A DNA stretch of 64,000 nt, taken from assembly GCF_004358095.2 (NCBI RefSeq), contig NZ_SMZJ02000007.1:1-64000 (forward strand), in the 5' to 3' direction. Origin of the DNA: Seonamhaeicola sediminis (GTDB lineage: Bacteria; Bacteroidota; Bacteroidia; Flavobacteriales; Flavobacteriaceae). The number at the start of each line of letters is the position of its first letter. Within the stretch, counting starts at the first letter, position 1. Positions 7,397 to 50,912 of the stretch are shown here, piece by piece. A program made the translations under genes and the position numbers. The notes below the pieces were generated by a model. It worked only from the letters and a program-made list of their open reading frames with translations. It was not told where the DNA came from and ran no database searches.

Positions 7397-8614
7397 ATGA
7401 ATTATAAAGATACTCTCAATTGGATGTTTTCGCAACTTCCCATGTATCAGCGTCAGGGTAAATCAGCTTACAAAGCAGATTTAAGCAATACGCATTTATT
7501 AGTAAACCATTTAAAAAATCCGCATAAAAAGTTTAGGTCTGTTCATGTGGCAGGAACTAATGGAAAAGGTTCTACCAGTCATATGTTAGCCTCCATCTTA
7601 CAAGAGGCAGGATATAAAGTGGGACTATATACGTCACCTCACTTAAAAGATTTTAGAGAACGTATTAAAATTAATGGGCAAGTAGTTAGTAAACAATTTG
7701 TAATTGGTTTTATAAAGCGTAATAAACCTTTTTTTGAAGCACATCAGTTGTCTTTTTTTGAAATGACCGTTGGAATGGCTTTTGATTATTTCGATAAACA
7801 AAAAGTTGATATGGCAGTTATTGAAGTTGGTATGGGAGGACGTTTAGATTCTACCAACGTTATTATGCCTGAAGTTTCCGTAATTACCAATATAGGTTTA
7901 GATCACACCCAATTTTTAGGAGAGACACTAGAAAAGATTGCGACCGAAAAAGGCGGTATTATTAAACCTAACATACCTGTTGTTATTGGTGAGACCCAAA
8001 GTGAAACGAAAGAAGTCTTTAAAGAACTAGCTCAACTAAATAACTCCAAAATTGTATTTGCCGATAAAGAAATTGATGTGGTTTTAGAAAGTGATTTAAA
8101 AGGAACTTATCAACCTAAAAATATTAAAACAGCAGTTCAAACTATTCAAGAATTGAGGTTAAAAGGATATCATATTTCCGAAGCACATTTAAAAAAAGGA
8201 CTATTAAATGTAGTTAAAAACACCAATTTACAAGGACGTTGGCAAGTTTTAGGGTCTCAACCCAAAGTGGTTTGTGATACGGGGCACAATAAAGAGGGAC
8301 TTAGTTATGTAATGTCTCAAATTTCAAAAGAAACCTTTCAGAAATTACATATTGTTTTTGGTGTGGTAAACGATAAGGATGTCAATTCTATTATTGATTT
8401 ATTACCAAAAGAAGCCACCTACTATTTATGTAAACCAGAAATTTCTAGAGGGCTACCAGCTAAAGACCTAAAACAGTTTTTTAATGACTATGGATTAAAA
8501 GGGGAAGCTTATAACTCTGTAAATAAGGCGTATAAAAAAGCCTTAAAGAACGCTTCATCTGAGGATTTTATTTTTGTAGGAGGGAGTACTTTTGTGGTGG
8601 CTGAAATAATTTAA
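7397..8614 (+). CDS. folC: Folylpolyglutamate synthase / dihydrofolate synthase
   Basis: Mur-ligase-family enzyme that adds glutamate to folates, and probably also to dihydropteroate as in most bacteria. The ATP-binding loop VAGTNGKGSTSHMLASIL lies near residue 52; the segment EVGMGGRLDSTNVI and the C-terminal-domain start VCDTGHNKEGL are family landmarks. Length 405 aa is normal. It starts 3 nt after the TonB-like gene and is the last gene of the exbB operon; the tRNA-Val promoter begins 18 bp after its stop. Confidence 0.92.
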   Translation: MNYKDTLNWMFSQLPMYQRQGKSAYKADLSNTHLLVNHLKNPHKKFRSVHVAGTNGKGSTSHMLASILQEAGYKVGLYTSPHLKDFRERIKINGQVVSKQFVIGFIKRNKPFFEAHQLSFFEMTVGMAFDYFDKQKVDMAVIEVGMGGRLDSTNVIMPEVSVITNIGLDHTQFLGETLEKIATEKGGIIKPNIPVVIGETQSETKEVFKELAQLNNSKIVFADKEIDVVLESDLKGTYQPKNIKTAVQTIQELRLKGYHISEAHLKKGLLNVVKNTNLQGRWQVLGSQPKVVCDTGHNKEGLSYVMSQISKETFQKLHIVFGVVNDKDVNSIIDLLPKEATYYLCKPEISRGLPAKDLKQFFNDYGLKGEAYNSVNKAYKKALKNASSEDFIFVGGSTFVVAEII

Positions 8615-8676: not shown

Positions 8677-8751
8677 GGGCGCGTAGCTCAGTTGGTTCAG
8701 AGCACTTGGTTTACACCCAAGGGGTCAGGGGTTCGAATCCCTTCGCGCCCA
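8677..8751 (+). tRNA. tRNA-Val (anticodon UAC)
   Basis: A full cloverleaf of 75 nt including the discriminator A. The acceptor GGGCGCG pairs with CGCGCCC; the D arm is GCTC/GAGC; the anticodon arm is CTTGG-TTTACAC-CCAAG with anticodon TAC (Val); the T arm is AGGGG-TTCGAAT-CCCTT. CCA is not encoded. It has its own promoter and a terminator starting 4 nt downstream. Its 3' part recurs twice downstream in broken form (9038-9130 and 9415-9504), between the GIY-YIG genes. Confidence 0.95.
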
Positions 8752-8754
8752 CAG

Positions 8755-8784
8755 AAGCTTCCAGAAATGGGGGCTTTTTTTTTT
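8755..8784 (+). terminator. tRNA-Val terminator (unit 1)
   Basis: Stem AAGCTTCC / GGGGGCTT (8 bp with two G-T pairs), a 6-nt loop, then ten T. It ends the tRNA transcript and directly abuts the start of the first GIY-YIG gene. Confidence 0.75.
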
Positions 8785-8788
8785 GAAT

Positions 8789-9037
8789 ATGAAATACTTC
8801 CTATATATCCTTTATTCTCAAAGTTTAGACAAATATTATGTAGGTTCAACTTCAAGCGTTGTTGATAGGCTATCAAAACATTTATCCAATCATAAAGGGT
8901 TTACTTCCAAAGCTAGAGATTGGATAATTAAATATTCAGAAGGTTATACAACTAAGGAGGATGCTTTAAAAAGAGAATTACAAATAAAAAAATGGAAGAG
9001 TAGGAAAATGATAGAAAAGTTAATTAATGGAAAGTAA
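8789..9037 (+). CDS. Small GIY-YIG nuclease-domain protein, copy 1
   Basis: 82-aa single-domain protein of the GIY-YIG (UvrC/URI-type) nuclease superfamily. The motif residues are present: FLYILYS (GIY-equivalent), YYVGST (YIG-equivalent), the catalytic-type Arg in DRLSKH and the Glu in ALKRELQIKKW, so it looks catalytically intact. I use ATG 8789; a TTG at 8783 overlaps the T-tract of the tRNA terminator. No ribosome-binding site or separate promoter is visible, so expression would need read-through of that terminator. Copy 2 differs at 3 residues (R/K, S/T, S/I). Function is not established; the position at a tRNA end suggests a mobile or homing role. Confidence 0.85.
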   Translation: MKYFLYILYSQSLDKYYVGSTSSVVDRLSKHLSNHKGFTSKARDWIIKYSEGYTTKEDALKRELQIKKWKSRKMIEKLINGK

Positions 9038-9130
9038 TTAGCTCTGATTCAGAGCATCCCGATTTTACATCGGGAGGGTCAGGGGTTTCCCGAAGCTAGT
9101 TCGGGACAAGCTGAATCCCTTCGCGCCCAC
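9038..9130 (+). pseudogene. tRNA-Val remnant 1, with palindromic insert
   Basis: Begins directly after the stop codon of GIY-YIG copy 1 with a D-arm-like TTAGCTC...TTCAGAGC and ends in AATCCCTTCGCGCCCAC, identical to the 3' end of the intact tRNA. The 5' acceptor strand is missing and the D loop is shortened. The anticodon arm is replaced by TCCCGA-TTTTACA-TCGGGA. The C of the T loop is replaced by 25 nt. It cannot fold as a working tRNA. Confidence 0.75.
9088..9106. repeat. Palindromic insert in tRNA remnant
   Basis: TCCCGAA-GCTAG-TTCGGGA, a perfect 7-bp inverted repeat placed within the former T loop. It is repeated with one mismatch in the second remnant (about 9462-9484). Short palindromes of this kind are dispersed in Bacteroidetes genomes as I recall, which I could not check here. 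Confidence 0.7.
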
Positions 9131-9132
9131 AG

Positions 9133-9161
9133 AAGCTTCCAGAAATGGGGGCTTTTTTTTT
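9133..9161 (+). terminator. Terminator copy, unit 2
   Basis: The same stem-loop as at 8755-8784, followed by nine T instead of ten. The one-base difference puts the ATG at 9145, inside the hairpin, in frame with GIY-YIG copy 2; in unit 1 the matching ATG is out of frame. Confidence 0.7.
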
Positions 9162-9165
9162 GAAT

Positions 9166-9414
9166 ATGAAATACTTCCTATATATCCTTTATTCTCAAAG
9201 TTTAGACAAATATTATGTAGGTTCAACTTCAAGCGTTGTTGACAGGCTATCAAAACATTTATCCAATCATAAAGGGTTTACTTCTAAAGCTAAAGATTGG
9301 ATAATTAAATATACAGAAGGTTATACAACTAAGGAGGATGCTTTAAAAAGAGAATTACAAATAAAAAAATGGAAGATTAGGAAAATGATAGAAAAGTTAA
9401 TTAATGGAAAGTAA
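9166..9414 (+). CDS. Small GIY-YIG nuclease-domain protein, copy 2
   Basis: 82-aa duplicate of the GIY-YIG protein at 8789-9037, with all motif residues kept. It differs by R-to-K, S-to-T and S-to-I plus two silent changes, so it is recent and not visibly decayed. An in-frame ATG at 9145 would add 7 residues (MGAFFLN) by translating through the terminator hairpin; I prefer ATG 9166, equivalent to copy 1. It is preceded by tRNA remnant 1, which lacks a promoter of its own, so it may be silent or depend on read-through from the tRNA-Val promoter. Confidence 0.82.
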   Translation: MKYFLYILYSQSLDKYYVGSTSSVVDRLSKHLSNHKGFTSKAKDWIIKYTEGYTTKEDALKRELQIKKWKIRKMIEKLINGK

Positions 9415-9504
9415 TTAGCTCTGATTCAGAGCATCCCAATTTTATATCGAGAGGTCAGGGGTTTCTCGAAGCTAGTTCGGGACAAGCTTAATCCTTTCGC
9501 CCAC
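9415..9504 (+). pseudogene. tRNA-Val remnant 2
   Basis: Second broken tRNA 3' part, beginning directly after the stop of GIY-YIG copy 2. It is alignable along its length to the remnant at 9038-9130, including the palindromic insert, but with several substitutions and three lost bases (ending CTTTCGCCCAC). The greater decay suggests this is the older tail of the array. Confidence 0.7.
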
Positions 9505-9516
9505 AACAAGTAAATG

Positions 9517-9548
9517 TCCGATTTGAAAACCCAAGTCGGATTTTTTTT
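9517..9548 (+). terminator. Terminator after tRNA/GIY-YIG array
   Basis: TCCGATTTG / CAAGTCGGA forms a 9-bp stem with one G-T pair and a 6-nt loop, followed by eight T. It differs from the two unit terminators and could be the original tRNA terminator that was pushed downstream by the insertions. Confidence 0.75.
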
Positions 9549-9883
9549 AGATAGTACAATATTCAAGCAAATTGTTTTTCTAAAAACAAAAACTTAAAAT
9601 GAACCATTGATGGCGTATTGCAATTATACTTGTGGGGTTGGTTTTACTTCAGGATATTCCACTTCACTTATTAAAAAGTTTCTAGAGCTATAATAATTTC
9701 TTTTATTCATAATTTTCAGACAATATACATAAGGTAAATCTACTGCTATAAATTTTATTTGTATATTTAATTATCCTCCCAATGTTTACCTGAAGAAAAT
9801 CCCTAGTTATGGGGATAGTATTAGACTAAAATTTGAACTACATTTAAAAATATTTTCGATAATTATTAATATTAATTACTAAA
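9549..9883. other. Non-coding 335-bp stretch
   Basis: AT-rich, without a plausible gene on either strand. The only structure I see is a short inverted repeat, ATCCC-N8-GGGAT, at 9799-9816, about 70 bp before the next gene, which could be an operator. Confidence 0.4.
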
Positions 9884-50881: not shown

Positions 50882-50912
50882 AAAATCCCGAATGTTTCAT
50901 TCGGGATTTTTT
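50882..50912. terminator. purK-purE terminator
   Basis: AAAATCCCGAATG-TTT-CATTCGGGATTTT, a perfect 13-bp stem with T runs on both sides, at the end of purE. Confidence 0.85.

Follow-up and report, generated by a model that had tools for sequence, protein, structure and literature searches.

Tandem units of a small GIY-YIG nuclease gene and a partial tRNA copy at tRNA genes of Bacteroidota

In Seonamhaeicola sediminis, an intact tRNA-Val gene is followed by two direct repeats, each carrying a very small GIY-YIG nuclease gene and an end that resembles a tRNA. The locus lies in a stretch of 64,000 nt (contig NZ_SMZJ02000007.1, positions 1 to 64,000 of the forward strand), here called the window and analysed as a whole. 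The question it raises is how a nuclease gene can occupy a tRNA gene, and occupy it twice in tandem, with the tRNA left complete. The answer favoured here, at a probability of roughly 0.6, is that the units are integrase-free, self-restoring selfish elements of the homing type, in which a minimal GIY-YIG nuclease is combined with part of the invaded gene in copy, with cleavage and movement presumed.

The tRNA-Val locus and its nuclease

The tRNA-Val(TAC) gene was the sole tRNA detected by ARAGORN in the window and one of 36 tRNA matches in the 3.54-Mb genome; it was preceded by an ORF of 405 aa (nt 7397-8614), which we take to be folC. Behind it stood two units at a spacing of 377 bp (Table 1), each opening with a terminator directly after the tRNA or a tail. 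An earlier note, made from the sequence alone, had described an intact tRNA-Val and two 377-bp units in which a terminator leads to an 82-aa GIY-YIG gene and then to a tail, and ARAGORN, the Pfam family PF01541 and the repeats agreed with this composition. Alignment likewise confirmed that the nuclease gene copies differ at 5 of 249 positions with the tails more divergent, and that the tails lack the 5' acceptor strand of tRNA-Val. The unit was also said to have no integrase, and indeed no recombinase gene was found in the window unit, in which the nuclease was the only forward ORF. An Rfam search of the window locus at gathering scores returned the tRNA alone and no group I intron RNA, and a group I intron was rejected on this ground. 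The terminator was set aside as a sign of foreign origin: the flanks of the congeners are not alike, and an empty site (G001) has a similar one.

Table 1. Features of the tRNA-Val locus in the window
Feature	Position (nt)	Strand	Evidence
tRNA-Val(TAC), intact, target gene	8677-8752	+	ARAGORN; Rfam RF00005, 72.9 bits
Terminator 3' of tRNA-Val	8753-8785	+	Fold -13 kcal/mol, z -3.2; direct repeat after tail 1
Unit 1 (terminator, nuclease gene, tail)	8753-9130	+	Direct repeats
GIY-YIG nuclease 1, 82 aa	8789-9037	+	PF01541, E 1.7e-16; alignment; dN/dS of relatives
Tail 1, copy of tRNA-Val without the 5' acceptor strand	9038-9130	+	Alignment with tRNA-Val
Palindrome replacing the anticodon arm of tail 1	9057-9075	.	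Pattern search
Second palindrome of tail 1, in the T loop	9088-9106	.	Pattern search
Unit 2 (terminator, nuclease gene, tail)	9131-9504	+	Direct repeats
GIY-YIG nuclease 2, 96% identical to nuclease 1	9166-9414	+	PF01541, E 1.1e-15
Tail 2, decayed version of tail 1, both palindromes damaged	9415-9504	+	Alignment
Possible original tRNA-Val flank and terminator, now beyond tail 2	9505-9550	+	By-eye likeness to the empty-site flank of G004; fold z -4.2

GIY-YIG (PF01541) was the only Pfam family in the window nuclease, and no Y1 (HUH) transposase was found in the unit. Among 28 aligned nuclease sequences, Y17, R27 and H31 were invariant and G19, E51, R62 and E63 were kept in at least 90%; these are presumably the residues with a catalytic role in the GIY-YIG active site. 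Pfam, the alignment and a structure model of the 82-aa protein (pLDDT 93.8) thus agreed on a GIY-YIG fold with conserved active-site residues. The nearest solved structures, by sequence and by fold, were UPF0213 proteins and SLX1, with 1zg2 alone below E 0.001 in the fold search and SLX1 appearing from E 0.015. SLX1 is an enzyme that cuts branched DNA. Since the protein is a single domain of 82 residues nearest to UPF0213 and SLX1, with no separate domain for binding and reading DNA, sequence-specific homing is not an obvious property of it. The nuclease is conserved as a protein and under purifying selection: the median dN/dS was 0.14, and all 102 pairs with dS between 0.1 and 1.5, which are not independent of one another, had values below 0.5.

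Relatives, targets and tails

At E 1e-20, the nuclease was found in 28 of 397 family genomes (S. sediminis included), representing 26 of 237 genera. The units form tandem arrays, with tandem copies in eight of the 28 genomes and up to five copies at a spacing of 355 bp. A tRNA lay within 1.5 kb in 24 of the 27 best loci outside the genome under study, and two of the other three loci began less than 200 bp from a contig end. In a scan of named Bacteroidota genomes that gave 241 relatives, the best 80 loci were analysed. As the earlier note had proposed to check, small GIY-YIG genes were indeed close to tRNA 3' ends: 49 of the 80 had the 3' end of a tRNA on the same strand no more than 130 bp upstream, against a chance expectation of 0.00066 (about 0.07%) calculated from 36 tRNAs in 3.54 Mb. 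The same kind of unit adjoined different tRNAs, namely Val(TAC) in 34 loci, Arg(TCT) in 11, Pro(TGG) in two, and Arg(ACG) and Met(CAT) in one each. The other 31 loci, sorted by eye, comprised 17 that followed the tail of another unit, four at a contig start, five that followed a partial tRNA 3' part, and five fitting no class, with a tRNA-Arg 190-570 bp upstream in four of the latter and a tRNA-Val 1.2 kb upstream in one. A partial tRNA 3' part preceded the unit in L144, L145, L167 and L188. On the nuclease tree, the kind of target was clustered yet switching (Val, 13 changes versus 26.8 shuffled; Arg(TCT), six versus 19.3). The tree was set aside as proof of transfer, 44 of its 76 inner branches being open; the units often cluster by genus, and much of the inheritance may be vertical. 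Searches with tblastn of phage and plasmid collections gave no relatives of the window subfamily. The arrangement is real and widespread in Bacteroidota.

Of 149 family genomes searched for a second nuclease subfamily, 54 were positive at E 1e-9, and 30 of its loci were read. By eye, 17 of the 30 had a mirror-image layout, in which a damaged 5' copy or remnant precedes the gene and the intact tRNA follows it; the targets were mostly Arg(TCG), together with Met, Ala, Arg(ACG), Pro, Leu and Ser. Five loci had a 3' tail (by eye), and three lay 134-160 bp after a tRNA-Asn with no copy seen. Four (L208, L210, L214 and L218) followed the truncated start of an epimerase-like gene (VTGGAGF; ending in GGAGFNP), and the start of a second epimerase-like copy was seen downstream in three of these. 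A partial copy of the invaded gene stands on the far side of the nuclease, as judged by eye for the mirror-image and protein-gene cases. At one further locus, L205, another gene is interrupted by a GIY-YIG gene that carries 12-bp inverted repeats (ACCTGTGAAATA). The target copies at these loci often contained the palindrome CCTGCC..GGCAGG; in-frame stops were present in five of the 30 loci, and in L189, L190, L191, L203 and L209 the nuclease stop codon was the TAG at tRNA positions 8-10.

The tails were more than shortened tRNAs. In tail 1 the anticodon arm was TCCCGATTTTACATCGGGA, a perfect palindrome of the form TCCCGA..TCGGGA, and the T loop was interrupted by TCCCGAAGCTAGTTCGGGA. The pattern TCCCGAN{2,9}TCGGGA occurred three times in the window against 0.01 expected, two of the occurrences being in tail 1; the third was at nt 50886-50906, distant from the units. 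The whole genome contained 14 palindromes of the TCCCGA type versus one for the reversed pattern. By a strict rule that skips plain cases (L131, L176 and L112), so that the counts are lower bounds, an anticodon-arm palindrome was present in 60 of 82 tails (from the 80 loci plus the two in the window), and 19 of these 60 had a second palindrome in the T arm, at varying positions and with the tag on either side.

The tail copy tracks the local tRNA. T arms were readable in 39 of the 63 loci with a labelled tRNA (in L173 the label tRNA-Phe is probably a misread tail), five of them with a palindrome straight after the loop; the local T stem was matched in 31 of the 39, and the acceptor as well in 29. 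Tails matching their own T stem numbered 13 of 19 for Val and 17 of 18 for Arg(TCT), versus 4.4 and 9.8, respectively, after shuffling, and none of 10,000 shuffles within Val or within Arg(TCT) reached the observed count. A cruder comparison of 30 tail bases with the adjoining tRNA, which scored interrupted tails as failures, gave 16 perfect matches among 49 loci; 25 beat every other locus of the same kind, and 14 were surpassed by at least one other locus. The T stem varies between species among the Chryseobacterium relatives and the tails vary along with it, which means either recombination between tRNA and tail or re-insertion. The earlier note had taken the tail for a copy of the 3' part of the tRNA: its derivation from the local tRNA held, and the palindrome in place of the anticodon arm had been missed. 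Relatives at unrelated sites without a tRNA tail would have spoken against the note; the tails found were instead made from the local tRNA. That the tail is a degenerate leftover was ruled out, as it tracks the local tRNA and, in L124, the only congener compared, was more conserved than the nuclease; that the window tails are working suppressor tRNAs was ruled out by the absent 5' acceptor strand.

Comparison of congeners revealed a target site that is occupied in one genome and empty in another. Two or three units were present at the same tRNA-Val in G002 (the array being partly N) and none in G004. Both flanks are homologous between the two genomes: the left one aligned as far as the end of the tRNA (871 bp, 78.5%), the right one from a point 81 bp past it in G004 (701 bp, 71.8%), and the array and some unaligned intergenic DNA lay in between. 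This comparison of flanks had been suggested beforehand, and together with the relatives at tRNA 3' ends it favours the proposed insertion at a tRNA 3' end, which turned out to be only one of at least three layouts. No nuclease was found after tRNA-Val within the stretch read in G001 and G003, or within the ~190 bp up to the contig end in G006. About 45 bp past the last tail of the window resemble the G004 flank by eye, a match that BLAST did not report.

Between these ends the gene itself appears exchangeable. In congener L124 the tRNA was identical to that of the window (76/76) and the tail nearly so (83/84 from nt 9047 on, palindromes included), whereas the gene matched at only 152 of 246 positions. 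In G002 (L103), a nuclease of another GIY-YIG subfamily lay between tRNA-Val and the tail, followed by what by eye is a fossil C-terminus of the first subfamily, and the last tail was 95% identical to that of the window over 85 bp. Near-constant tRNA and tail around a diverged or swapped gene mean that one nuclease is succeeded by another while the ends stay in place.

A homing-type route and its alternatives

What is observed is an intact tRNA on one side of the unit and, on the other, a partial copy of the same gene. By the homing-type reading, the nuclease would cut the target tRNA gene on an unoccupied chromosome. The left broken end would then pair with the intact tRNA of the donor, and the right one with the acceptor and T arm of the donor tail, regardless of the sequence beyond; in repair, the unit would be copied in and a single whole tRNA would remain. 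The units could be multiplied in tandem by cutting or by recombination of the repeated tRNA ends, and arrays would grow and shrink. The palindrome would keep the tail copy from functioning as a tRNA, and it may also abolish a site of cutting or serve as a binding site for the nuclease. A point against homing is that the intact tRNA stays next to the nuclease. As at least 34 of the 63 labelled tails have an uninterrupted T arm (the 39 readable minus five), palindromes in the T arm cannot be a general protection.

An element directed by structure is the first alternative, and an unlikely one. Here the nuclease would recognise hairpins or cruciforms, whether palindromes or folded tRNA genes, and palindrome and gene would move together as in REP/RAYT systems, a behaviour suited to a protein whose nearest solved structures are UPF0213 and SLX1. 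It draws further on other GIY-YIG genes of the genus. The S. sediminis genome and six congeners gave 34 GIY-YIG matches, of which 30 were fetched: three close kin, four adjoining tRNAs, and 23 others. Copies of a short repeat flanked 20 of these 23 in inverted orientation and 22 in inverted or direct orientation. Distant flanks of the same loci gave 1/23 (inverted copies only), but flanks cross-paired between loci also scored, in 121 of 506 pairs, because such repeats resemble each other. The repeat-flanked loci were L003-L007, from S. sediminis itself, and L012-L031; in L003, L016 and L023 the stop codon lay inside a palindrome. A protein of this kind had matches on 32 records of a plasmid collection. 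Of the 14 that were read (L219-L232), ten had inverted repeats on both sides, two of these (both Sphingobium) being one locus, against 35 of 182 cross pairs; one had palindromes in the same orientation and three had none. These repeats were mostly CGTC- or GTCAT-tagged, and the hosts were cyanobacteria, proteobacteria and Spirosoma. Genomes with the unit also contained more TCCCGA palindromes (median 15.5 versus 2 without; p 1.8e-4), a count from 18 versus 18 hand-picked genomes, with G002 entered as occupied, that weakens to p 0.009 when five per occupied genome are subtracted. Against direction by structure, no matching palindrome was found upstream of the window nuclease gene, and the tails follow the sequence of the local tRNA, a match that structure alone would not require.

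A link between the tRNA units and REP palindromes is plausible. REPs of the CGTC class were reported without a dedicated transposase, and their mobility was left open in 2013, according to the part of that work available (PMC3733652). It is put forward tentatively that UPF0213/SLX1-like GIY-YIG nucleases drive a large, undescribed class of mini-elements made of a nuclease gene and palindromes, some lying between REPs as the missing enzyme of CGTC REPs, others in tRNA genes and a few protein genes, where a palindrome-marked copy would keep the target working; the window unit would be one branch of this class.

An immobile local duplication appears improbable; by this reading, a single arrival of a GIY-YIG gene in a tRNA cluster was followed by ordinary tandem duplication, and descent has kept the array. 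The units of Chryseobacterium, Salegentibacter, Gillisia and Aequorivita do group by genus, mostly at weak forks, and the empty congener sites could be losses. However, the same nuclease family with the anticodon-arm palindrome occurs at Val, Arg, Pro and Met tRNAs, with the local tRNA copied at each target, and the L124 unit, nearly identical in tail and far diverged in gene, and the exchanged subfamily in G002 also speak against it. The note had itself named a local duplication without mobile relatives as the outcome that would count against it; several tRNA kinds and the occupied and empty pair point the other way.

Genomic islands that integrate at tRNA genes insert at the tRNA end, and the repeated tRNA end restores the gene; the unit described here differs in having no integrase and in the palindrome that replaces the anticodon arm of the repeat. 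That the tail is such an attachment-site repeat and the unit a passenger moved by an integrase in trans is very improbable: tRNA 3' repeats do flank the unit like att sites, and an integrase-like gene (by eye) lies beyond the tRNA 3' half in L144 and L167, but the window unit has no recombinase, in most arrays the units lie too close together to accommodate one, and the mirror-image 5' copies and the protein-gene target misfit integration at tRNA 3' ends.

Relation to known systems

The homing-type reading has its closest parallel in SegB of phages T4 and T6, a free-standing GIY-YIG homing endonuclease in a tRNA cluster that cuts inside tRNA genes and drives tandem amplification by recombination, with the reported motif RAWTSGAAC (PMC13096335, available in part). 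On the other strand we read this motif as GTTCSAWTY, which the tRNA T loop GTTCGAATC fits, and both systems join a GIY-YIG enzyme adjoining tRNA genes to tandem amplification. SegB is phage-borne whereas the units are chromosomal, the accessible description of SegB mentions neither a target-copy tail nor a palindrome, and the nuclease here, unlike SegB, is one domain of 82 aa. A partial copy of the target also accompanies the nuclease gene in the mORFs of fungal mitochondria, known from Allomyces atp6 and from Glomus atp6, atp9, cox2 and nad3, in which an endonuclease gene, of the GIY-YIG type in atp9, comes with a duplicated host-gene end that replaces the displaced one; these differ in lying in mitochondrial protein genes, and the part of the paper available mentions neither tandem arrays nor a palindrome within the copy (PMC3630166). 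The likeness to REP/RAYT systems is that GIY-YIG genes related to the one in the window, not that gene itself, lie between dispersed short palindromes; RAYTs, as far as the accessible text goes, are tyrosine transposases, in contrast to the GIY-YIG enzyme here (PMC3733652).

No prior account of these tRNA units was found in the open-licence PMC literature (preprints lying outside its scope) among the matches listed, and the arrangement would be new among homing-type elements. If correct, the homing-type reading adds an integrase-free route into tRNA genes that does not break them and that is widespread in a bacterial phylum, and the units are a naturally occurring case in which to test how a host is spared by a homing element. 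The related genes between palindromes point to a candidate enzyme for the CGTC REPs, going by the available part of the 2013 account of their mobility (PMC3733652).

Such units are easily overlooked because the genes are tiny and some tails read as tRNAs. ARAGORN called tails tRNA-Stop or tRNA-SeC in L034, L038, L041, L119, L130, L149 and L154, which is an annotation trap, and anticodons TTA or TCA were read in some tails; a nearly complete tail such as that of L041 could conceivably work as a suppressor tRNA. A record titled Actinomyces viscosus MAG (L138) contained a Bacteroidota-like tRNA-Val followed by a GIY-YIG gene and is perhaps a misbinned contig.
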